Source of the DNA: Lachnospiraceae bacterium
GTDB taxonomy: Bacteria > Bacillota > Clostridia > Lachnospirales > Lachnospiraceae
DNA: 33,909 bases
NCBI GenBank assembly: GCA_023663945.1
Contig: JAMPGL010000039.1
Coordinates: 1 to 33,909, forward strand
Reading direction: 5' to 3'
Below the pieces are notes generated by a model that saw only the letters and a list, made by a program, of their open reading frames with translations, had not been told where the DNA came from and did no database searches. Shown here piece by piece: positions 359-27,381 of the stretch. The position numbers and the translations under genes are program-made. The number at the start of each line of letters is the position of its first letter. The first letter of the stretch is position 1.

Positions 359-1450
359 ATGAAACGGAAGCGTGCTATAATTACTTCTTTGCTGATAATC
401 TGTCTTTTATGTACATCGCCCGCGTTCTCTTTTTCTGTCCAAGGGGCGGAGGATTCTGGCAGACTGTTGGAAGCCTACGAGGACTACCAGCAGCGGCTGT
501 TTGGAATTACCAGGCGTTCCGAGATGGAAGCGGCGGGGTTTCGGGTGATCAGCGACCAGATATTTCCCATTGAGACCGAATGCTTTGGAGGAGTGACCCT
601 GATTCCGGCGCTGGAAAAGGATTATCACAGGCTGGCGCTTTTTCTTGCCAAAGAGGATGGAACGATTGTTTACGCAACCGACCAGCTTGAGGTGAACAGC
701 AGAAATAAGGGACAGATGGAACAGCCGGTAAAGAAGCTTGCCGCGGTTTCCTTTCAGGAGCTTGACGGGGATGGCAAAACAGATATTGTATTGATCACCA
801 TCTGCGAAAATAAGACGGGAGCCTACAAAGGGAAGCCCTATAAGGTAGGAGATGTGCTTTTTCAAAATGAACAGGGTTTTTACCGGGATTACCGAATTTC
901 GGATAAGATTAACCGCTTCAGCATGAATAAGAGCGTGGAGTGCATCACCTCTTTTGTGAGAGATGGGAGAAGCGCAGAATTTTTGTACACGGCGACTACC
1001 AAGCGGGAGCTTCAAAGAAACGGGTTCCAGATTACCAAGGAGCAGTGTTATTTCAGGCAGTTTGAAAAGCTGGGGCGTCTGGAGGTGGTTCCGGGCACCT
1101 ATACCATGGCGGATTTCGCTTTTTTTATGATTTATCTTGTGGACGAGCAGGGAGACATTGTCTGGAGCTTTCAGCCCATGGGGGATTATGACAATCTGTA
1201 CGCGCTGAAAGGAATTGCCTGCCGGGACATTGACGGGGACGGAATGAAGGATCTTCTGGTTCTGGCAAGGTACAGTTACGAGGGAAACGAACTGCTGACG
1301 GAAAGCAGTTATACTATTTATTATCAGAGAACCGGCGGGTTTTATGAGGACACGGAGATACATAAGAAATACCCTTGCAGTGATGAGGATACGGTGGCGG
1401 AGCTGGTAGAGCGGGCAAGGGCTTATTGGGGGTGGAAGACAGAAGAATGA
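359..1450 (+). CDS. Secreted protein with two DxDGDG (FG-GAP/VCBS-like) motifs
   Basis: The 363-residue product starts with a clear signal peptide (KRKR, a hydrophobic stretch to about residue 22, and a likely cut after Ala30), so it should be exported. Two calcium-loop-like motifs, LDGDGKTD near residues 135-142 and DIDGDGMKD at 290-298, each followed by hydrophobic strands, resemble the repeats of FG-GAP/VCBS propellers. The sequence between them has no motif I recognise. The stop codon overlaps the next start (ATGA at 1447-1450), so it is translationally coupled to the response regulator. I infer an extracellular accessory or sensing partner of the two-component system. The start is supported by a GAAGGTGGG site and the promoter above. 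Confidence 0.75.
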   Translation: MKRKRAIITSLLIICLLCTSPAFSFSVQGAEDSGRLLEAYEDYQQRLFGITRRSEMEAAGFRVISDQIFPIETECFGGVTLIPALEKDYHRLALFLAKEDGTIVYATDQLEVNSRNKGQMEQPVKKLAAVSFQELDGDGKTDIVLITICENKTGAYKGKPYKVGDVLFQNEQGFYRDYRISDKINRFSMNKSVECITSFVRDGRSAEFLYTATTKRELQRNGFQITKEQCYFRQFEKLGRLEVVPGTYTMADFAFFMIYLVDEQGDIVWSFQPMGDYDNLYALKGIACRDIDGDGMKDLLVLARYSYEGNELLTESSYTIYYQRTGGFYEDTEIHKKYPCSDEDTVAELVERARAYWGWKTEE

Positions 1451-2106
1451 CTAGAATACTGATTGTAGATGATGAAAAGGCAATATGCGATTTGATTGAT
1501 TTGAATTTATCGTCCTCCGGCTATCAATGTACTGCCGTACAGGATGGGCTTGAGGCGATTGCACTGCTGGAAAAGGAAAGCTTTGATCTGGTGCTTTTGG
1601 ATATTATGCTTCCGGGAGCTGACGGATATGACATTATGGATTATATCCGCCCTTTAAGAATTCCGGTGATTTTTATTACCGCCAAGCATGAGGTTAAGGA
1701 CAGGGTAAAGGGGCTTAAGCTGGGAGCCGACGATTATCTGGTAAAGCCTTTTGATGTGGTGGAGCTGGTGGCAAGGGTGGAGGCTGTGCTTCGGCGCTAT
1801 CACAAGGCGGAGCGGATTTTTACCATGGGTGATGTGGTCGTGGATGTGGAAGCACGGCAGGTTACCCGGGCAGGAAGACCGGTGATACTCACCAATAAGG
1901 AGTTTGGGCTGTTGGTTTTATTTATCACAAACAAAAATGTGGCTTTATTCAGAGAAAGTCTGTATGAGAAGGTTTGGGAGGAGGAGTATTACGGCGACAG
2001 CCGGACCCTCGACCTTCATGTGCAGCGTCTTAGAAGAAAGCTTGGCTGGGAACAAAATCTGGTAGCGGTATACAAGATTGGATACCGCTTAGAGGTACCG
2101 CAATGA
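1447..2106 (+). CDS. OmpR/PhoB-family response regulator
   Basis: The 219-residue regulator has an N-terminal receiver domain with the acidic pair Asp8-Asp9, phospho-acceptor Asp52 (in LLDIMLPG), Thr78 and Lys100 (VKPFD). A C-terminal winged-helix domain ends in RTLDLHVQRLRRKLG and YKIGYRLE, the usual recognition-helix and hairpin signatures. I chose the ATG at 1447, which overlaps the upstream stop, over a TTG at 1426 because the receiver domain begins right there. The stop overlaps the kinase ATG (2103-2106). By family it is phosphorylated by the adjacent kinase and binds 11-bp-spaced direct repeats; such a repeat array is present at 4350-4412. Confidence 0.93.
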   Translation: MTRILIVDDEKAICDLIDLNLSSSGYQCTAVQDGLEAIALLEKESFDLVLLDIMLPGADGYDIMDYIRPLRIPVIFITAKHEVKDRVKGLKLGADDYLVKPFDVVELVARVEAVLRRYHKAERIFTMGDVVVDVEARQVTRAGRPVILTNKEFGLLVLFITNKNVALFRESLYEKVWEEEYYGDSRTLDLHVQRLRRKLGWEQNLVAVYKIGYRLEVPQ

Positions 2107-3533
2107 AATTTTCTTTGAAACTTCTGTTATGGAGTATTATTGTGATGGCAATATCACTTGGCTTCAGCGGATTTTATTTTGTGAATTATGTGTTTGAGAC
2201 ATCCATTGAGCGTGAAGTGGGACAGGCGTTAGACGAGAACAGCATTCTTCGGTTTGCCTTTGAGACGGCGGCGTTAAACGTGCCTGCAAAGTATGATGTG
2301 CTGCAGGACGGCTCGATTGAGCAGATTGCAGTGAATCTGGAATCCGGCGGGATGAACACCGGAAGGATGCTCCGCATTTCCAACGAGGAGGGGGATGCGC
2401 TCTATGCCAGCGATGGGTTTGATGCGGATGAAGAATTGCTTGCCATCACAGACGAGACCACCAAGACCTACCGCGTCATTTCCTTAAATGACCAGTATTA
2501 TGTCCAGACCGGAAGCACGGTGAAAGCGCTTGACAGGGTGATTTATCTGGAAACCCTGCGGGATGTGACGGAAGTGTTTCATGAACGGGCACTGGGATTT
2601 ACCGTGTACCGGAGGGTGATGGTTCTAATGCTTGTGCTTGGAACCCTGATCATGCATTTAATCGCTTCCTGGCTGACCAAGCCCATCCGGCTTTTGACCA
2701 AGGCGACCAAGCAGATGGCGGCAGGGGATTATGAATACCGGGCGCGGAAGGTGAGCAATGACGAACTGGGACAGCTTACATTGGACTTTAACCAGATGGC
2801 GGAGGCGCTGGAAGAAAATGTAAGGAAGCTGGAAGATGAACTGCAGGCGCGGGAGGACTTCATGGCGGCATTTGCACATGAACTAAAGACCCCGTTAACA
2901 TCAATTATAGGTTATGCAGATATACTTCGTTCGCGGAAACTGGATGAGGAAAAGAGCTTTTTGTCGGCAAATTACATTTACACGGAAGGAAAACGACTAG
3001 AGGCAATGTCCATCCGCCTGTTAGATATTATGGTGGCAAGGCATGGAACGCCGGTATTTCAGAGTGTTCCAAGTGAAAATCTGTTCCAGTATCTGAAAGA
3101 TATGTTTCAGACCAATGAGGAGATGGATTTTGTTTATTCCTACGAAAAGCATATCGTCCGGGTAGAGGCGGATTTGATTATTACAGTGCTGATTAATCTT
3201 CTGGACAACGCGGTCAAGGCATCGGAACCGGGAAGCAGAATTGAGATTTTTGGACGCAGGGAGGAAGCGGGCTATCGGTTCGGCGTGAAGGATTACGGGG
3301 TAGGGATTCCCGAGGAGGAGGTTCAAAAGATTACCAAAGCCTTTTATATGGTAGACAAGTCCAGATCCAGAAGCAAAAACGGCGCGGGACTTGGGCTGGC
3401 GCTTTGTGCGGAAATTTTATCCCTTCATGGAAGCGTGCTCTGCATTGAGAGCGTATTAGGACAGGGAACCACCATGAGCTTTGTGATTCCAGAAGGCAGA
3501 GAGGAGGAGCAGCATGAAAAAGTCAGTCATTAA
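2103..3533 (+). CDS. Membrane sensor histidine kinase (HAMP, HisKA, HATPase_c)
   Basis: The 476-residue kinase has a transmembrane helix near residues 5-28, an extracytoplasmic sensor of about 140 residues, a second helix near 172-192 and a HAMP linker (SWLTKPIRLL). The dimerisation motif FAHELKTPLTS carries His259. The ATP-binding domain shows the N box (NLLDNAVKAS), G1 (DYGVGIPEEE) and G2 (GAGLGLAL). Its ATG overlaps the regulator stop by 4 nt, and its own 3' end overlaps the next gene by 20 nt, so four genes form one coupled operon. The signal is unknown; the extracellular domain has no family signature I can name. Confidence 0.93.
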   Translation: MKFSLKLLLWSIIVMAISLGFSGFYFVNYVFETSIEREVGQALDENSILRFAFETAALNVPAKYDVLQDGSIEQIAVNLESGGMNTGRMLRISNEEGDALYASDGFDADEELLAITDETTKTYRVISLNDQYYVQTGSTVKALDRVIYLETLRDVTEVFHERALGFTVYRRVMVLMLVLGTLIMHLIASWLTKPIRLLTKATKQMAAGDYEYRARKVSNDELGQLTLDFNQMAEALEENVRKLEDELQAREDFMAAFAHELKTPLTSIIGYADILRSRKLDEEKSFLSANYIYTEGKRLEAMSIRLLDIMVARHGTPVFQSVPSENLFQYLKDMFQTNEEMDFVYSYEKHIVRVEADLIITVLINLLDNAVKASEPGSRIEIFGRREEAGYRFGVKDYGVGIPEEEVQKITKAFYMVDKSRSRSKNGAGLGLALCAEILSLHGSVLCIESVLGQGTTMSFVIPEGREEEQHEKVSH

Positions 3534-4341
3534 TTATGCCCTTCTTCTTGCGGCAGTGTTGGTGGTGGGATTTGCCGTATGGGGACCGGAGGCGTTAACC
3601 GTGTACAAGGACCGGACGGTATTAAACGCCATTCATACTCAGACTACGGAGATGGAAGAAGAGGGCTACCGTTATCAGCTCAGCAGCAGGGAAAGGGTTT
3701 ATATCCTTTCCAGATGTTTAAACAGTCAGACGCTTCCGGAAAGTGAGCAGAACGCCCTGACCAGGACGGAAGAGGAGATTGCGTATCAGGAGTCCGATGG
3801 AACCTATGCATTTGTGATAAACCGTCAGGGACCTTCCGGCAGGGAAATTACGGATGATGAGATTTATGCCACCTGTAATCAGATGCTTAAGGAGATGAAG
3901 GAATACGGAATCCTTCCGGATACCTTGAGGGAAGTGACTTCCGGCGGATACGATGCGGTGCTGTATTCGGCGATTGATGTTTTAGAGCCTAGAAACAATG
4001 TTTCGGTGTGGAAGGTAAGCCTGTCCACCAGCCAGAAGAATGCAGATAAGCAAAACCGGCTGATAGACGCTTATGTGGACGCCGACACCGGAAAGGTATA
4101 TGAGTTTTATGCAAGAACACAGCTTGGATGGGATGAGATTGACACCGATGAGATGATCAAAAGCTGGGGACAATATATGGGAATGGGAGAGCCGGAGGTC
4201 TATGAAACGGATAACCCCCTTTTGGAGACGACGCCCTATTACCAAAAATATGTTTTCAGGGCAAATGGAGACGAGAGAACGATTGTCACGATTGGATTTT
4301 ATGAGGGAATTAACGAATTATTTCTTAAAATTTCAAGGTAA
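3514..4341 (+). CDS. Membrane-anchored extracytoplasmic protein of the two-component operon
   Basis: The 275-residue protein has a short basic start and one hydrophobic helix (about residues 5-25), so it is probably anchored with the rest outside. A late stretch, VDADTGKVYEF, resembles the strand-turn of PepSY/YycH-like accessory domains, but I cannot assign a family. It overlaps the kinase by 20 nt and has a strong GAGGAGGAG site. Position and topology suggest an accessory modulator of the kinase, as YycH/YycI are for WalK. This is inference from context only. Confidence 0.7.
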   Translation: MKKSVINYALLLAAVLVVGFAVWGPEALTVYKDRTVLNAIHTQTTEMEEEGYRYQLSSRERVYILSRCLNSQTLPESEQNALTRTEEEIAYQESDGTYAFVINRQGPSGREITDDEIYATCNQMLKEMKEYGILPDTLREVTSGGYDAVLYSAIDVLEPRNNVSVWKVSLSTSQKNADKQNRLIDAYVDADTGKVYEFYARTQLGWDEIDTDEMIKSWGQYMGMGEPEVYETDNPLLETTPYYQKYVFRANGDERTIVTIGFYEGINELFLKISR

Positions 4342-4349
4342 TTTAAAAA

Positions 4350-4426
4350 TGATGCAACTATGATGCAAAAATGATGCAACTTTGATGCAACTATGATGAA
4401 AAAATGATGCACTTTCGTTGTATGCT
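4350..4426 (+). promoter_or_regulatory. Six 11-bp direct repeats with TATGCT -10: probable response-regulator promoter
   Basis: TGATGCAA or one-to-two-base variants begin at 4350, 4361, 4372, 4383, 4394 and 4405, an exact 11-bp period (about one helical turn). The fifth and sixth copies are variants (TGATGAAA and TGATGCAC). A TATGCT -10 lies at 4421-4426 with no good -35 at the usual distance, as in PhoB-type activated promoters. The array lies between the two-component operon and the amidase/deacetylase gene. It points to cooperative binding by the OmpR-type regulator encoded at 1447-2106. Confidence 0.65.
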
Positions 4427-4466
4427 GTTTTATAGGAGACAGCTACAGGAGAGGAGCATCATTTTT

Positions 4467-5990
4467 ATGCACAAAGGAAAAAAGCATACCCCCAAAGAAA
4501 AATATATCCGCAGGTCTATTGAGGCGAGGAGCAGGTCGGAAAAAATAGAAAGCTTTCTGATAGCTTTCATAATGCTGATTTGTTCCCTGCTGGTCACAGT
4601 GATTGCCGTTAAGAAACCCTTTGGTGATTTTGGCGGATCCGCGCAGGAGGAAATGACAGAAGGAGAAGAGGAGAATGTTTTGGGTTCCTCAAAACGGACA
4701 GCTTCAAAGACTTATCAGGGTAAAATTCGGAAGCTGGAATCCCCCCAGACGTTAGAGCCTGTACTGTCCAGAGAGGGGGAAATCAAAAAGCAGGTTCTCC
4801 TAGGAGCCGGCATGTCAGGAGAAGATGACGGGAAGGAGAAGGAACCTCTTATTATCATCGACCCCGGACACGGCGGAATGGATGAGGGATGTATTAATGC
4901 GGGAGTGAAGGAAAAGGACGTGAACCTGCAAATCGCCCTGTTAGTCAGGGATAAGCTGGAGGAAATGGGAATGCGCGTAAGCCTTACCAGAGAAAAGGAT
5001 ACTTACCTTGCTAAGGAGGAGAGGGCGGCATTTGCCAATCAGGAGAAGGGGGATGCGTTTATAAGCATTCATCAGAATACGTTTGAAGACGCGGGGGTCT
5101 GCGGGATTGAGACTTGGTATGACGGAACGGGGACAAAGCGGGAGAGCCAGAGGCTTGCACAGCTTGTTCATGAGCAGACGTTAAAAAGCACCGGAGCTAA
5201 GGAGCGGGAAATCAGGGGAGATGCGGATTTCCATGTGACTAGCAATGCCAAAATGCCCGCATGTCTGATTGAAACAGGTTTTTTGTCAGGAAAAGAAGAA
5301 AAAAAGAATTTGACGGATGCCAAATATCAGGACAAGCTTGCAGAGGGAATTGCACAGGGAATCTATCTTTTTTTCAACCCGAAAACTATGTACCTCACCT
5401 TTGATGACGGACCCTCCGCCGAGTGTACAGATATGGTGCTCAATATTTTAAGGGAACGGAATATCAAGGCAACCTTTTTCTTGATTGGAGAATACGTGGA
5501 AAAGTACCCGGAGACGGCAAAACGGATTGCAGATGAGGGGCATACCATTGGAATCCATTGTTACCGCCATGACTATGGGGAGCTTTATCGAAGCGTGGAC
5601 AGCTATCTTGCAGATTTTCAAAAAGCATATGACGCAGTGGAGGCGGCAACCGGAGTGAGGGCAAAAATATTCCGGTTCCCGGGAGGAAGCGTCAATGCGT
5701 ATAATAAGTCAATCTGCAAAGAGATTATTGAAAAGATGACGGAACGGGGGTTTGTATATTTTGACTGGAATGCCAGCTTGGATGATGCCGTGGGGGAACC
5801 GACTCCGGAAGAACTGCTCGTCCGTGCCGAGGAGACAACTTTAGACAGGAAGAAAGTGATCATGCTCGCCCATGACCGGGTATACAGCACGGCAATGTGC
5901 TTAGACCGCCTGCTCACACAGTTTCCGGAATATAAGATGGAGGTATTATCGCCGGATGTGGAACCCATAAAATTTGTCCTTCCGAAATAA
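4467..5990 (+). CDS. N-acetylmuramoyl-L-alanine amidase / polysaccharide deacetylase fusion
   Basis: The 507-residue protein has a basic N-terminus, one membrane helix (about 28-48) and a linker, then two enzymes. The Amidase_3 domain (about 127-300) has zinc and catalytic residues His135 (DPGHGG), His202 (SIHQN) and Glu269 (IETGF). The NodB deacetylase domain (about 305-505) has TFDDGPS with Asp313/Asp314, the metal pair His364 and His368, RFPGGS, and a C-terminal LAHD motif. It is predicted to face outward on the membrane, cleave stem peptides from glycan strands and remove N-acetyl groups. The ATG at 4467 is preferred because an in-frame upstream ATG (4404) lies inside the operator repeats, while GGAGAGGAG precedes 4467. 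Each family is certain; the substrate is inferred. Confidence 0.9.
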   Translation: MHKGKKHTPKEKYIRRSIEARSRSEKIESFLIAFIMLICSLLVTVIAVKKPFGDFGGSAQEEMTEGEEENVLGSSKRTASKTYQGKIRKLESPQTLEPVLSREGEIKKQVLLGAGMSGEDDGKEKEPLIIIDPGHGGMDEGCINAGVKEKDVNLQIALLVRDKLEEMGMRVSLTREKDTYLAKEERAAFANQEKGDAFISIHQNTFEDAGVCGIETWYDGTGTKRESQRLAQLVHEQTLKSTGAKEREIRGDADFHVTSNAKMPACLIETGFLSGKEEKKNLTDAKYQDKLAEGIAQGIYLFFNPKTMYLTFDDGPSAECTDMVLNILRERNIKATFFLIGEYVEKYPETAKRIADEGHTIGIHCYRHDYGELYRSVDSYLADFQKAYDAVEAATGVRAKIFRFPGGSVNAYNKSICKEIIEKMTERGFVYFDWNASLDDAVGEPTPEELLVRAEETTLDRKKVIMLAHDRVYSTAMCLDRLLTQFPEYKMEVLSPDVEPIKFVLPK

Positions 5991-22163: not shown

Positions 22164-22184
22164 GATAATGCTGGGCAAAATAAG

Positions 22185-22254
22185 AAGTACAGGAAAGGAA
22201 GTACAGGAAAGGAAGCACAGGAAAGGAAGTACGGGAAAGAAAGTGCGAGGCAAG
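22185..22254 (+). repeat. Five 14-bp tandem repeats containing Shine-Dalgarno-like GGAAAGG
   Basis: Units start at 22185, 22199, 22213, 22227 and 22241. The first two are identical (AAGTACAGGAAAGG), the third differs at one base, and the last two are more diverged. The array lies in the leader of the BlaI-type gene, just upstream of its real AAGGAG site. Confidence 0.75.
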
Positions 22255-22273
22255 AATGGAAAGGAGAGAGCAG

Positions 22274-22654
22274 ATGAAGAGACTGCCGGATTCGGAGCTG
22301 GAAATTATGATGATTATATGGGATTATGACAAGCCTGTGACACGGACGGAGATTGAGGAGCGGCTTGACGGGGAACGTAAGCTTTCCCCGACGACGGTTC
22401 TTTCCTTTCTTTCCAGACTGCAGGAGAAGGGATTTCTCAAGGTGGAGAAGTCAGGCAAGAACAATATTTATCTTGCGCTGATTAGGAGAGAGGATTATAT
22501 GCGGACTGAGAGCCGGAATATTTTAAAGCGTCTGTATCAAAATTCTGCCAGAAATTTTTTGGCGGCGCTGTACGACGGGGAGGCTCTCACGGAAGAAGAA
22601 TTGGAAGAGCTGGAGGATTATATCAGCACAAAGCGAAAGGAACAGTCAAAATGA
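22274..22654 (+). CDS. BlaI/MecI-family repressor
   Basis: The 126-residue repressor has the family layout: an N-terminal winged helix (LPDSELEIMMIIWD, TRTEIEERL, LSPTTVLSFLSRLQEKGFL) and a helical dimerisation tail. In BlaI/MecI the repressor is inactivated by proteolysis triggered by the M56 receptor; here the receptor gene overlaps by 4 nt. ATG 22274 is chosen because AAGGAG lies 7 nt upstream and the product length matches the family; an earlier ATG (22256) has no such spacing. Confidence 0.92.
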   Translation: MKRLPDSELEIMMIIWDYDKPVTRTEIEERLDGERKLSPTTVLSFLSRLQEKGFLKVEKSGKNNIYLALIRREDYMRTESRNILKRLYQNSARNFLAALYDGEALTEEELEELEDYISTKRKEQSK

Positions 22655-25464
22655 GAGAATTATTTTTGAATGTGATTGAGATAAATATAGCGGTATCCAT
22701 TGTGTTTCTGGCTGTTTGTGTCCTAAAAGGAAAACTGAGAAAGCGTTATGGCGCGGGCTGGCTCAAGATGGTCTGGCTTTTGTTGGCGGTGCGTCTCTTG
22801 ATTCCCGTTAATTTTTCTCTGCCGGGAGGGTTTCTTTTGGTGAATTTGTCAGGGATTCCCTTTTTGCGGACAGAGGAGGACACAGCAGATTTTGTTGAGG
22901 GAATGGCAGAGTGGGGCAAAGAAACGGCGGAATCTGGCAAAGGAATAACAGATTCGGACAAGGATACAGCAGATTTTAGCACTGAAATGGCAGATTTCAG
23001 TGCTGGAATGGCAGATTTTAGTAATGCAACGGCAGATTTAAACAAGGTATCCGCAGAAATAGAGAAGCAGGACGGAGGTAATCCGTCGCAGATGGAATTG
23101 GGAGCAGGGCAGGCAAAGGAACAAGGCAGACAGGAAGAGAATGGGGGGACAGACGGCACGGCAGACAGAGAGAATGAGAATCCCTATATTGCACCTGCTG
23201 GGGAAGGAGAACTGCTGTCGGAGCTGCTGCTCTTAGCAGGAACCAGAATTTGGCAGGCGGGAATGCTGATTTTCTTTTTGTATTATCTGGTAAGTTATGG
23301 ATATTTTTCCGTGAAGCTTAAGAGAAGCTTACAGCCGGTTGCTGACAGGAGCGTTAAAAGGCGGATTGACAGCTGGCAGAAGCATTTTATGGGAAAAATC
23401 AGGCTTGCTTCCTGTCAAAGTGCATTGGTAAGCAGTCCCATGATAGTGGGGATTTTGGCACCAAAGCTGATTCTTCCGGAAGGAAAGAAAAATTGGTCTG
23501 AGGAGGAGTTGGAATTTGTGACTGCCCATGAACTCTGTCATTATCGGAACAGGGATCTTTGGCTGAAGCTTCTGATGACGGCAGCGTGCTGTGTGAATTG
23601 GTTTAATCCGCTGGTCTTTCTGCTGAGAAAGCAGTTTTATTATGATTTAGAGCTTGCCTGTGACGGAAAGGCACTTTCGGGGTATGGCAGAGAGGAGCGG
23701 GAAAGCTATGCAAGGATTATGCTTGCGTTTGCAGGTAAAACTGGCAGGGAGGCGTTTTTTTCTACGGGATTTTCTGGAAATAAAAAGCAGATGAAGCGCA
23801 GGATTGATTACATGTTTGACGATACCCGGAAGAGAAGGGGGATAATAAGCATTGCCGCTGCCGGGCTGGTGATTTTGGCTATGGGACTTTTGATTTCCTG
23901 TGGGTATCAGCAGGAAAGGGCGGAGGAACCGCAAAATAGTCAAAGCGAAGTGGACGAAAATGAAATACCGGATGGGGAAAAGATACCGGAGCAGGAGGCT
24001 CTTGCACAAAGTGAGGAAGGGGATGAAGAAGTACAAGATGTTCCTTATGATGTGAACAATGAGTATAATGAAATGATCCGGTGCCACGGAGATGACATTT
24101 ACATTGCCAGAGAGGATGGAATTTACCGTTTATCTGATGATGGAGAGGAGGAAGAGCTTTTATATGCAAATAAATATGAAATAAGGAGAGGGATGGAACT
24201 TTATCAGGATTCTCTTTATTTTTGCGGTACAGCAATGCGGGGAGGACAGGAGGCGGCAACCATTTACCGGATGGATTTAAACACCTATGAGGTGGAAGAT
24301 GCGCTTGCACTGTTTGGCAGTCTCTTTGACACGCTCTATCATATCACGATTTATGAGGGCAGGCTCTATGCGGCAAGCGGATACGCTCAGAGAATCGGCT
24401 TTGAACTGGATGAAAATGGCGTTATTACCAAACAGCTTGATGCCAAGGCAGATGACTTTTTATTTAAGGAGGACAACGCTTATTGGGGGCTGCAGTTAAA
24501 GATTTGGAATAACGAAGTGGAATTTGGCTCTGAGGAATATTGGAATGTGACAGACCAGATGAACGGAATGTACCGGAACATCATAGATGCGGCCGCCTGT
24601 GAGCGGATGTTGGATGGAAATCAGGTAGTTGCAAAGTATAAGGACGAACTATTGACAAGTATTTATCTGAAAAAGAAAGACGGAGATTACGAGTTTTTGT
24701 GCGATACCATAAGCTATCCGTCACTGGTGACGGAAACGGGGGTGTACTATTTTCCTGACGAGGGATTTGAAATTTGGTATGTGGATTATGAAACCAAAAC
24801 GAATCAGATGATATGGAAAAAGGAAGACCAAAGGAAGTACCGTGAGACCCAGCTTGTAAACTATGATAAGGAGTATATCTATTTTACCGTCTCGAATCAG
24901 ATTGGCAATTATGAGGGAGACGACGATGGATTGACGATACTGCGAGAATCCTATCTGATGCGGGTTCCCAGATGGCAGGAAGGAAAAGCGGAAAGGATTT
25001 ATCAGTTTGACATGGAGCACCGCATAGGCAGTTTACAGTTAAATTGTGCCGTGGCAGACGGGCAAATGTTCTTTAATGACTATGAGACCGTATCTTTAGA
25101 TCCGGCGCAGAACCATGTGGACAACAGCGGAGAATCTTCCGAGGATGCGGCGGCAATGGAACAGGTAATGGAAGGCTTTGCCGAGGCTTATTTTCAAAAT
25201 GATGAGGAGTCCCTGCGGACATATCTTTCTGAGGATTATACGGACAAAATGGATCTGTACCCGTATCCGGAACAAGCTGGGGAAATAGAAGGACTGTACA
25301 TTTCCGGGCTTCCGGACGGGAACCTTCCGGAAGGAGCATTCTGTTATGTGTCTTATGAATTTCGCGGAAATGTGGAGACGGATGAGGCTCTTTCTTACCT
25401 GAGTACAGAAATGGTTAAAACGCCCGAAGGGTGGAAAATCAGCTTTTACGGGCTGGAAGGATAA
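22651..25464 (+). CDS. M56 (BlaR1-like) metallopeptidase receptor with non-penicillin-binding sensor
   Basis: The 937-residue membrane protein begins with two hydrophobic helices (about 8-24, 37-57), then an unusually long loop (about 65-205) with a heptad-residue repeat. A third helix (about 207-228) leads to the zinc-protease domain, with HELCHY at 293-298 (His293, Glu294, His297) and a Glu-rich helix near ELACDG, then a fourth helix near 400-418. The outer part (about 440-830) is a repetitive, Tyr/Asp-rich region resembling DUF5050-like propeller repeats (DDIYIAREDGIYRLS and similar), followed by an NTF2-like C-terminal domain. No transpeptidase SxxK-type sensor is seen. It probably cleaves or triggers cleavage of the BlaI repressor on an unknown signal. 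Confidence 0.87.
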   Translation: MRELFLNVIEINIAVSIVFLAVCVLKGKLRKRYGAGWLKMVWLLLAVRLLIPVNFSLPGGFLLVNLSGIPFLRTEEDTADFVEGMAEWGKETAESGKGITDSDKDTADFSTEMADFSAGMADFSNATADLNKVSAEIEKQDGGNPSQMELGAGQAKEQGRQEENGGTDGTADRENENPYIAPAGEGELLSELLLLAGTRIWQAGMLIFFLYYLVSYGYFSVKLKRSLQPVADRSVKRRIDSWQKHFMGKIRLASCQSALVSSPMIVGILAPKLILPEGKKNWSEEELEFVTAHELCHYRNRDLWLKLLMTAACCVNWFNPLVFLLRKQFYYDLELACDGKALSGYGREERESYARIMLAFAGKTGREAFFSTGFSGNKKQMKRRIDYMFDDTRKRRGIISIAAAGLVILAMGLLISCGYQQERAEEPQNSQSEVDENEIPDGEKIPEQEALAQSEEGDEEVQDVPYDVNNEYNEMIRCHGDDIYIAREDGIYRLSDDGEEEELLYANKYEIRRGMELYQDSLYFCGTAMRGGQEAATIYRMDLNTYEVEDALALFGSLFDTLYHITIYEGRLYAASGYAQRIGFELDENGVITKQLDAKADDFLFKEDNAYWGLQLKIWNNEVEFGSEEYWNVTDQMNGMYRNIIDAAACERMLDGNQVVAKYKDELLTSIYLKKKDGDYEFLCDTISYPSLVTETGVYYFPDEGFEIWYVDYETKTNQMIWKKEDQRKYRETQLVNYDKEYIYFTVSNQIGNYEGDDDGLTILRESYLMRVPRWQEGKAERIYQFDMEHRIGSLQLNCAVADGQMFFNDYETVSLDPAQNHVDNSGESSEDAAAMEQVMEGFAEAYFQNDEESLRTYLSEDYTDKMDLYPYPEQAGEIEGLYISGLPDGNLPEGAFCYVSYEFRGNVETDEALSYLSTEMVKTPEGWKISFYGLEG
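22882..23049 (+). repeat. Eight 21-bp (7-residue) tandem repeats within the M56 gene
   Basis: Residues 78-133 split into eight seven-residue units with consensus [T/M]ADFSxx, the best copies being TADFSTE, MADFSAG and MADFSNA. The DNA units are 21 bp, so copy number could vary without shifting the frame. The region lies in the loop between the second and third membrane helices. Confidence 0.75.
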
Positions 25465-25537: not shown

Positions 25538-26212
25538 GTGAATCACAAAATTCTGATTGTTGATGACGAAACCGATATTTTGACCATGCTGGGAAACTTT
25601 TTTGAGAGCAGAGGTTATTTGGTGTTAAAGGCGTCAAAGGGAGAGGAGGCGGTTCGTCAGGCGGAGCGCGGTCCGGAGATGATTCTGCTTGACATTAACA
25701 TGCCGGATATGGATGGCTTGGAGGTCTGCCGGCGTATCCGGGAGTATGTTTCCTGTCCGATTCTCTTTCTCACGGCAAGGATTGAAGAGGGGGATAAGCT
25801 GAAAGGATTTTCGGCGGGCGGTGATGATTATATGGTTAAGCCTTTTTCCTTGGCGGAGCTGGAGGCAAGAGTGGAGGCGCATCTGCGCAGAGAACGCAGG
25901 CATCGGCGGATCGCGCAGATCAAGTTTTGCGGAAATCTCACTATAGATTTTGGGGAGCGCTGTCTGTTTTGTGAGAACCAAAGGATTGCGCTGACCAAAA
26001 AAGAGTTTGGGATTGTGGAACTTCTCTGCCAAAATCCGGGGCAGGTTTTTGACAAGGAACGGATTTATGAGCGGGTATGGGGCTATGACAGCGAAGGGGA
26101 CAGCGGCGTTGTTGCGGAGCATATCCGGAGAATCCGGAATGCGATAGCAGTCTGCACAAATGTACCTTATATTGAAACGGTCTGGGGGTGTGGATATAAA
26201 TGGGTCAAATAA
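25538..26212 (+). CDS. OmpR-family response regulator (second system)
   Basis: The 224-residue regulator has a receiver domain with Asp9-Asp10, phospho-acceptor Asp52 (LLDINMPDMDG), LTAR and VKPFS. The winged helix ends in AEHIRRIRNAI and VWGCGYKW. It starts with GTG; no nearby in-frame ATG fits, and the receiver domain begins immediately. AAGGGAGAG lies upstream, somewhat far. Its stop overlaps the kinase start by 13 nt. It probably binds the repeated element at 25469 and 27378. Confidence 0.92.
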   Translation: MNHKILIVDDETDILTMLGNFFESRGYLVLKASKGEEAVRQAERGPEMILLDINMPDMDGLEVCRRIREYVSCPILFLTARIEEGDKLKGFSAGGDDYMVKPFSLAELEARVEAHLRRERRHRRIAQIKFCGNLTIDFGERCLFCENQRIALTKKEFGIVELLCQNPGQVFDKERIYERVWGYDSEGDSGVVAEHIRRIRNAIAVCTNVPYIETVWGCGYKWVK

Positions 26213-27381
26213 AAGTGCTATGGCAAAATCTGTCTCTGCGAAAAAGCATTGCGGCATATCTCACAGCGTTTACTTGTCTGGCAGTCCTGCTTTGTGCGGT
26301 TACAATCTCCCTTTGCGACCAAGGCGAAACAAAGATTAACAGCCGTTATCCGCTGTTTGGGGAGGAAGTCTATTATCTGACCAATCAGCAGGGACAGCAG
26401 TTAGGAGAGGGAGTCAGAATCGGGACGGGACAAATGCCGATGACGAGAGAAGACGAGATAAGGGTTATTGTTTTAAGAAAAATTCAGACATTTTGTGTGC
26501 CGGTTTATTCCGCACTCTGCATCGTTGGAGCGGCGCTTTTGTTCTATCGAAATAGGCTGAAAAAGCCTATAGGGCTTTTGACGGAAGCTGCCCGGAAGAT
26601 TGCGGAGAATGATTTGGATTTTTGTGTGTCCTATGAGCGGAGGGACGAATTGGGGGCTCTGTGCAGAGCGTTTGAGACGATGCGTTCTGCGCTTCATCGC
26701 AATATTTCGGAGATGGGGCGTCAGATGGAGGAGCGGAAACGCCTCAATTCCGCCTTTGCCCATGACCTGAGGACGCCGCTGACCGTGCTGAAGGGGTACG
26801 GCGAAATCCTACAGGCAAGTCCGGATGAGCAGACGCAGAAGATTGCCGTTACCATGGAAAAGCATATCGACCGGCTGACGCGTTATGCGGACAGCATGAG
26901 CAGGCTGCGCCGGTTAGAGGATGCCAGCCCTCAGTATCAGAACGTTTATGCCGGAGATTTTGTGGATTCTTTAAGAGAATGCGCGCAGATGCTGTGCAGG
27001 CACAGCGGAAAAGACATGCATATGGAGGAGCGCATAAGTTCCCGGCAGATTTACATTGATGGGGAGTTTGTCTCTCAGGTATGCATTAACCTGATCTCCA
27101 ACGCTGTCCGTTATGCCCAAAGCCGTGTGACGTTTGCGGTGGAAGAGAAAGAAACGGGGATTTTGATTTCCGTGACAGACGATGGGAAAGGATTTGAAAA
27201 AGACTGCCTCCAATATGCGCTGGAGCCCTACTATACGGAGGAGGAGAATCATTTTGAGCATTTTGGGCTGGGGCTTTATATCTGTAAAGTGTTATGCGGG
27301 CATCACGGGGGAGACTTGACCATTGAAAATACTGGAAAGGGAGCAAGGGTGGCTGCATTTTTTAAATTTGGCGCAAAGTAG
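26200..27381 (+). CDS. Sensor histidine kinase (second system)
   Basis: The 393-residue kinase has two membrane helices (about 18-38 and 95-115) around a short outer loop of about 55 residues, then a HAMP-like linker (KKPIGLLTEAARKI). His188 lies in FAHDLRTPLTVLKGYGE. The ATP-binding domain has NLISNAVRYA, DDGKGF and HFGLGLYI. The short extracytoplasmic loop resembles intramembrane-type kinases that respond to envelope stress or antimicrobial peptides, often next to ABC permeases, as here. The ATG is inside the regulator's last codons. Confidence 0.92.
   Translation: MGQIKVLWQNLSLRKSIAAYLTAFTCLAVLLCAVTISLCDQGETKINSRYPLFGEEVYYLTNQQGQQLGEGVRIGTGQMPMTREDEIRVIVLRKIQTFCVPVYSALCIVGAALLFYRNRLKKPIGLLTEAARKIAENDLDFCVSYERRDELGALCRAFETMRSALHRNISEMGRQMEERKRLNSAFAHDLRTPLTVLKGYGEILQASPDEQTQKIAVTMEKHIDRLTRYADSMSRLRRLEDASPQYQNVYAGDFVDSLRECAQMLCRHSGKDMHMEERISSRQIYIDGEFVSQVCINLISNAVRYAQSRVTFAVEEKETGILISVTDDGKGFEKDCLQYALEPYYTEEENHFEHFGLGLYICKVLCGHHGGDLTIENTGKGARVAAFFKFGAK

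Follow-up and report, generated by a model that had tools for sequence, protein, structure and literature searches.

A six-unit array of 11-bp direct repeats as the probable activator operator of a same-operon OmpR/PhoB-type response regulator in Lachnospiraceae

The six direct repeats that precede an amidase/deacetylase gene in the 33,909-nucleotide stretch of Lachnospiraceae DNA analyzed here (the window) very probably form an activator operator for the OmpR/PhoB-type response regulator (RR) of the same operon, whose target promoter would be nested in the terminator of the operon upstream. The array, its spacing, its conservation, its co-distribution with the RR and a predicted hairpin were read from sequence, and from them we infer binding, dimers, activation, the transcription start and termination. 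A first-pass annotation of the window had proposed an OmpR/PhoB operator, a reading supported here by the conservation of the array, its co-distribution with the RR, the offset of the -10 element and a geometry shared with E. coli phoA; it was silent on the spacing to the -10, the regulon and the straddling terminator.

Structure of the array and its operon

The genome to which the window belongs, as contig C40, comprises 3.74 Mb in 107 contigs. The window holds, in this order, the genes for an FG-GAP-like protein, the RR, a sensor histidine kinase (HK) and a PepSY-like protein, then the array and the amidase/deacetylase fusion gene (Table 1). The 3' end of the FG-GAP-like gene overlaps the start of the RR gene, and by eye its product has a signal-peptide-like N-terminus. 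The RR carries a receiver domain and a winged-helix Trans_reg_C domain, both far above the Pfam cut-offs, and the top NCBIfam model for the HK was WalK, under its cut-off. PepSY was matched at E<=0.01 in 26 of the 49 members of the accessory-protein alignment, and a structure model of the PepSY-like protein (mean pLDDT 68) has a helix at 3-36. At 25538-27381 the window encodes another pair of OmpR-type regulator and kinase, the regulator having a different recognition helix (SGVVAEHIRRIR). Two other tandem repeats were seen in the window: one of 14 bp (4.4 copies, 22184-22244), directly before an ORF at 22256, and one of 21 bp (3.4 copies, 22969-23039), within the ORF 22651-25464.

Table 1. 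Features of the operon, the array and the downstream promoter region, in window coordinates
Feature	Position	Strand	Basis or remark
FG-GAP-like protein, operon gene 1	359..1450	+	FG-GAP matches weak, under Pfam cut-off
OmpR/PhoB-type response regulator (RR)	1447..2106	+	Response_reg and Trans_reg_C; presumed array binder
Sensor histidine kinase (HK)	2103..3533	+	HAMP, HisKA, HATPase
PepSY-like accessory protein	3514..4341	+	N-terminal hydrophobic helix; PepSY under Pfam cut-off in the window
Operator unit 1, TGATGCAACTA	4350..4360	+	Sequence and TRF
Operator unit 2, TGATGCAAAAA	4361..4371	+	Sequence and TRF
Operator unit 3, TGATGCAACTT	4372..4382	+	Sequence and TRF
Operator unit 4, TGATGCAACTA	4383..4393	+	Sequence and TRF
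Operator unit 5, TGATGAAAAAA	4394..4404	+	Degenerate, in many orthologues too
Operator unit 6, TGATGCACTTT	4405..4415	+	Putative -35 stand-in; also hairpin left arm
Predicted intrinsic terminator	4405..4466	+	Hairpin 4405-4461, then T-run 4462-4466
-10 hexamer TATGCT	4421..4426	+	Exactly 10 nt past TGATGC of unit 6
Nominal transcription start	4433 (+/- 2 nt)	+	Predicted from the -10
Shine-Dalgarno-like GAGGAG	4451..4456	+	In right side of read-through hairpin
Target gene: Amidase_3 and polysaccharide deacetylase	4467..5990	+	N-terminal hydrophobic segment by eye

The six units with an 11-bp period start where they had been annotated and are far beyond chance. TRF returned a period of 11 and 5.7 copies, and a four-unit pattern (up to two mismatches) matched the array alone in the window, in five overlapping registers, against a mean of 0.00 and a largest count of 0 in dinucleotide shuffles. 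Four units have TGATGCAA, the fifth has TGATGAAA and the sixth TGATGCAC. The repeats had been drawn over 4350-4426, which is right for 4350-4415, whereas 4416-4426 are a spacer and the -10 hexamer; similarly, the regulator described as immediately upstream, though part of the same operon, lies about 2.2 kb away, with the kinase and PepSY-like genes between. An array of six units could plausibly work as a strongly cooperative switch, as was then suggested.

Conservation of the array with the RR operon

Absence of the array from close relatives with the same operon had been named as evidence that would count against the operator reading. Of 136 confirmed RR loci in Lachnospiraceae the best 80 were taken, and 77 of these were assessable (the exceptions being the truncated L117 and L181, and L162, which had no PepSY gene); in 72 of the 77 an array, usually of six units, stood after the PepSY gene and before the amidase/deacetylase gene. 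All 72 outscored every one of 1540 mononucleotide shuffles; two marginal ones (L186 and L190), just over the shuffles and rejected by another scoring, are counted among the 73 cis loci used below, which comprise the 72 and the window (72 distinct 60-mers, close relatives included). For the five loci without an array, no amidase was found in the 2.7 kb after the PepSY gene in L157 and L193, the amidase match lay 2.1 and 0.8 kb off in L131 and L194, and the sequence of L161 ended 243 nt after the PepSY gene, too short to judge. In distant cis loci the units decay to the core nnATGnnnnnn, with phase and number mostly kept.

When the same 80 loci, chosen as the best of 136, were searched with one pattern for array-like sites upstream of the RR gene itself, 2 were positive; upstream sequence of 1.8 kb or more was available for 72 of the 80. 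Two-unit sites with a well-placed -10 were observed upstream of the RR gene, on the same strand, in L175 (-1318), L184 (-3021) and G004 (C1:321676), and these sites in three genomes possibly reflect a lineage-specific autoregulation.

Promoter geometry and unit number

The information in the inner units sits at A3, T4 and G5 (1.9, 2.0 and 1.5 bits), with a weaker A/T preference in the tail, which favors a base-specific operator over phased A-tracts. Downstream of the cis arrays (n = 73), the hexamer kept T1 in 72, A2 in all 73 and T6 in 71 loci and varied mainly at positions 3-5, the pattern of a -10. Since the array positions in this count had been picked partly by -10 score, a second test was performed on arrays found blind to the -10: TAnnnT occurred at offset 16 from the start of the last unit in 64/69 trans arrays (those away from the RR operon) and in 48/56 cis arrays, against 0-3 at the remaining offsets from 12 to 20. 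The trans set consists of the fetched array places rather than every array of the genus, with those of G031 and of genomes found by the two-unit scan alone lying outside it; duplicates were merged and L227, which repeats L226, was left out. The cis array L253, from another genus, was kept in the blind -10 test and left out of the trans unit and hairpin counts, and in L252 no array was found in the trans unit count.

In the sequence of E. coli phoA, TGTCAC is followed by 10 nt and then by TATAGT. Tandem direct repeats with an 11-bp period ending about 10 nt before a -10 were likewise found here, and because phoA shares this spacing between the last repeat and the -10, the geometry of the array is that of a PhoB-activated promoter. 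Promoters of the phoA type generally lack a -35 element. The -10 of the window is weak, and the output of a simple promoter scan of the window did not include the array promoter.

Four units were found in 50/67 trans arrays and six in 9/67, while cis arrays had six in 48/73 and four in 14/73. Counted blind to the -10, trans arrays (n = 69) had four (45), six (10), five (8) or three (6) units, and cis arrays (n = 56) mainly six (32) or four (15), with three in 6 and seven in 3; odd numbers made up 14/69 and 9/56, respectively. The dominance of even numbers fits two or three bound dimers. Unit number and -10 quality showed a weak trade-off (Spearman 0.27, p = 0.027). The earlier remark that six units exceed what is usual agrees with the other promoters, where four was commonest, but six was commonest at the operon's own promoter; for ArcA, 92/158 sites have three to five 11-bp repeats, as given in PMC3798270.

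A predicted terminator straddling the promoter

The hairpin predicted across the promoter has a dG of -27.6 kcal/mol (z = -6.64), while RNA beginning at 4433 folds at -1.9. Its left arm falls within unit 6, the spacer and the -10, all upstream of the presumed start, and the stable predicted stem abuts a U-run, as in intrinsic terminators. A straddling hairpin (at -12 or below, with the left arm preceding the start by 10 nt or more) was found in 48/73 cis loci against 10/365 dinucleotide shuffles, and by the same criterion no hairpin was found in 25/73; the 73 loci are related, not independent. The output of a simple terminator scan of the window did not list it.

Covariation was scored on 23 non-redundant loci with the short hairpin form, picked because they fold. 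In them, 9/10 stem pairs had changed on both sides, and 90.9% of the pairing cells were paired, against 76.7% after shuffling and at most 60.0% with the partner slid; the covariation score was 0.603, against 0.329 and at most 0.226, respectively. The frequent G-U pairs favor an RNA over a DNA palindrome. Only read-through RNA would contain the left arm, from which it follows that the enzyme would be expressed only from the RR-driven promoter.

Among trans promoters, 16/68 had a straddling hairpin (-9 or below), with the left arm beginning no more than 4-5 nt before the presumed start in 11 of the 16. A predicted link between these hairpins and a co-directional upstream gene was unsupported (13/53 vs 1/10, p = 0.43).

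Arrays elsewhere in the genome and the genus

A genome scan for further arrays with an 11-bp period had been proposed as a check, and it turned up many more. With a three-unit pattern (up to three mismatches), the window's own genome gave 41 matches in 15 places (that on C82 weak), and the reversed control pattern gave none; there were at least 13 array places besides that of the window, mostly of four units. The RR and PepSY genes were found in the same 29/37 genomes of the genus, the RR being scored as absent when no match reached E<=1e-60. All genomes with the RR (29/29) had sites outside the RR operon, against 2/8 without it (Fisher p = 1.2e-5). The RR-positive genomes were scored by the three-unit pattern in seven cases and by two units plus a spaced -10 in 22, and the control for the latter pattern was negative in all 30 genomes (0/30). 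The two exceptions, G007 (a four-unit array at C25:244876) and G012 (two units at C61:8971), may carry remnants, or the RR may be missing from their assemblies.

RpoB was chosen as the tree marker because alanyl-tRNA synthetase showed two score classes. The tree was built on the 28/37 genomes with an RpoB match, of which five lacked the RR; the window's genome and three of the eight RR-lacking genomes were among those without an RpoB match. RR absence required three changes on this tree, at least two of them forced by well-supported branches, and the absence label was more clustered than in most shuffles, so that the evidence amounts to a few events and not to eight independent losses. The alanyl-tRNA synthetase matches within this one genus fell at about E-202 to E-207 or at E-142 to E-146, with G007 at E-191, which points to two types or to a transfer.

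Elsewhere in the family, 4/395 genomes had a three-unit array (up to one mismatch), so that trans arrays have multiplied mainly within this genus. The RR with its cis array does extend further, for example to G360, L253 and the Acetatifactor records L142 and L166. The highest counts of array matches were those of G000, G031 and G032.

Regulator identity and alternative explanations

An alignment of the window's RR with 23 orthologues (24 sequences) showed almost no variation in the recognition helix (SRTLDLHVQRLR), as expected with a conserved operator. The phospho-acceptor aspartate typical of the family is conserved, D52 and D8/D9 being invariant in the same sequences. The closest full-length paralogue in the genome is 53% identical to the RR. 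Of the 32 Trans_reg_C matches in the genome, 30 regulators were fetched and 20 aligned by tblastn, the window's included, leaving 10 unaligned.

Binding of the arrays by another OmpR-type regulator is unlikely. That number of candidates, the similar helices of several of them (the nearest, TRTVDVHIQRLR, in a paralogue at C59) and the sites of G007 and G012 without the RR would all suit it, but the array accompanies the RR operon in nearly all assessable loci of the best 80 of 136, remote sites track the RR, in a co-distribution computed for this RR alone, and an identical helix was found in 0/19 aligned others (29 others fetched). A comparably low probability is given to the hairpin being a DNA palindrome for a second regulator instead of an RNA terminator: inverted repeats around a -10 are a common form of operator, but here T-runs follow the stem, G-U pairs are used and sequence changes are compensated.

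Two readings that dispense with a specific protein were rejected. Curved DNA or an UP-like element of phased A-tracts, aiding RNA polymerase directly, would account for the 11-bp period, the A-runs that end several units and the A/T-rich positions 8, 10 and 11; however, conservation falls on TGATG, where ATG carries 1.5-2.0 bits, the tail is often CTA, TTA or CTT, and the co-distribution is left unexplained, so this reading is highly improbable. Functionless tandem-repeat slippage is the least credible of all, with hardly any chance of being right. It would suit the similarity of the units and the copy numbers that differ among species, but diverged units keep the TGATG/ATG core, the phase and the distance to the -10 over many genomes, a conservation that already contradicts slippage, and even unit numbers dominate.

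Proposed mechanism

With the same-operon RR as the preferred binder, phosphorylated RR dimers in head-to-tail order would each occupy a pair of 11-bp half-sites, with three dimers at the cis promoter and two at most other promoters. The start-proximal dimer, 10 nt ahead of the -10, would stand in for a -35 element and recruit RNA polymerase, like PhoB at phoA, and in this genus the same RR would drive a regulon of exported and surface proteins. The upstream RR-kinase-PepSY operon would end in an intrinsic terminator that encloses the -10 and the start, so that read-through RNA would fold the hairpin, ending transcription and, in this genus, covering the Shine-Dalgarno sequence, while RNA from the array promoter, born without the left arm, would escape termination.

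More broadly, we are somewhat inclined to regard this as a composite element recurrent in Lachnospiraceae, in which the activator promoter of a two-component system is folded into the terminator of that system's own operon, the last repeat and/or the -10 region serving as the left arm; only RNA born at the promoter would be elongated and, in this genus, translatable, and in one clade the arrays would have multiplied to at least 12 surface-protein promoters. Searches of the open-licence literature with narrow phrases, which are weak evidence, returned no paper on such a terminator arrangement nor on such a Lachnospiraceae regulon. If correct, the model would make the operator of an apparently uncharacterized envelope two-component system in gut Lachnospiraceae readable, so that the regulon could be listed from the sequence of any genome. 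It would also provide a natural series of promoters, differing in the number of RR dimers (two or three) and in -10 strength, for studies of cooperativity, and would show how a regulated gene can be shielded compactly from transcripts running on out of the operon of its regulator.

Comparison with known systems

By analogy, the system probably works like a PhoB-type activator. The array resembles phoA in its 11-bp direct repeats, the PHO box being made of two 11-nt direct repeat units (PMC4415409), and in the 10 nt between the last half-site, TGTCAC in phoA, and the -10. It differs from PhoB sites in its TGATG head (TGTCA in PhoB) and in usually having four or six units. The RR was rejected as a PhoB equivalog (NCBIfam TIGR02154, 190.2 bits against a cut-off of 296.2). 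ArcA sites also have more than two direct repeats with 11-bp spacing, but their number and spacing vary and many of the targets described are repressed (PMC3798270), whereas the present arrays mostly have four or six units at a fixed position to the -10.

WalRK/VicRK half-sites, TGTWAH-N5-TGTWAH, follow an 11-bp period and serve cell-envelope targets (PMC4168254, PMC9210968). The present system shares the half-site period, the envelope targets and an accessory membrane protein, and differs in half-site sequence. Membership in WalR/WalK was rejected (RR 174.9 bits against 340 for YycF; HK 184.6 against 725 for WalK). YycH and YycI are reportedly accessory membrane proteins of WalK; a 49-sequence profile of the PepSY-like protein matched no PDB chain at E<=1. 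With the PhoB and WalR/WalK cut-offs of NCBIfam missed, the RR-HK-PepSY set was filed as an OmpR/PhoB-family system with its own half-site, apparently an uncharacterized one in which the nested terminator is a variant arrangement.

Genes under the trans arrays

An N-terminal hydrophobic segment was found in 53/61 first genes under trans arrays, against 33/121 other ORFs of the same loci. Pfam and NCBIfam scans assigned LRR, VIT/VWA, sulfatase-domain, GH25, LysM, RCC1-like and WG-repeat proteins, and about half of the scanned genes had no family match. A cell-surface regulon is the natural summary of these genes. By Pfam, an array precedes a VIT/VWA protein gene both in the window's genome (L019), where an exosortase K gene follows it, and in G032 (L212); the proteins of L214 (G003) and L231 (G030) resemble these at the N-terminus, by eye alone.

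At three trans loci of the window's genome, all near contig ends (L009, L012 and L018, on C17, C26 and C76), the upstream sequence, the array and the leader are very similar, and the downstream genes differ. The upstream gene of L009 had no Pfam match. The likeness suggests that the end of the upstream gene and the promoter were copied as one unit.
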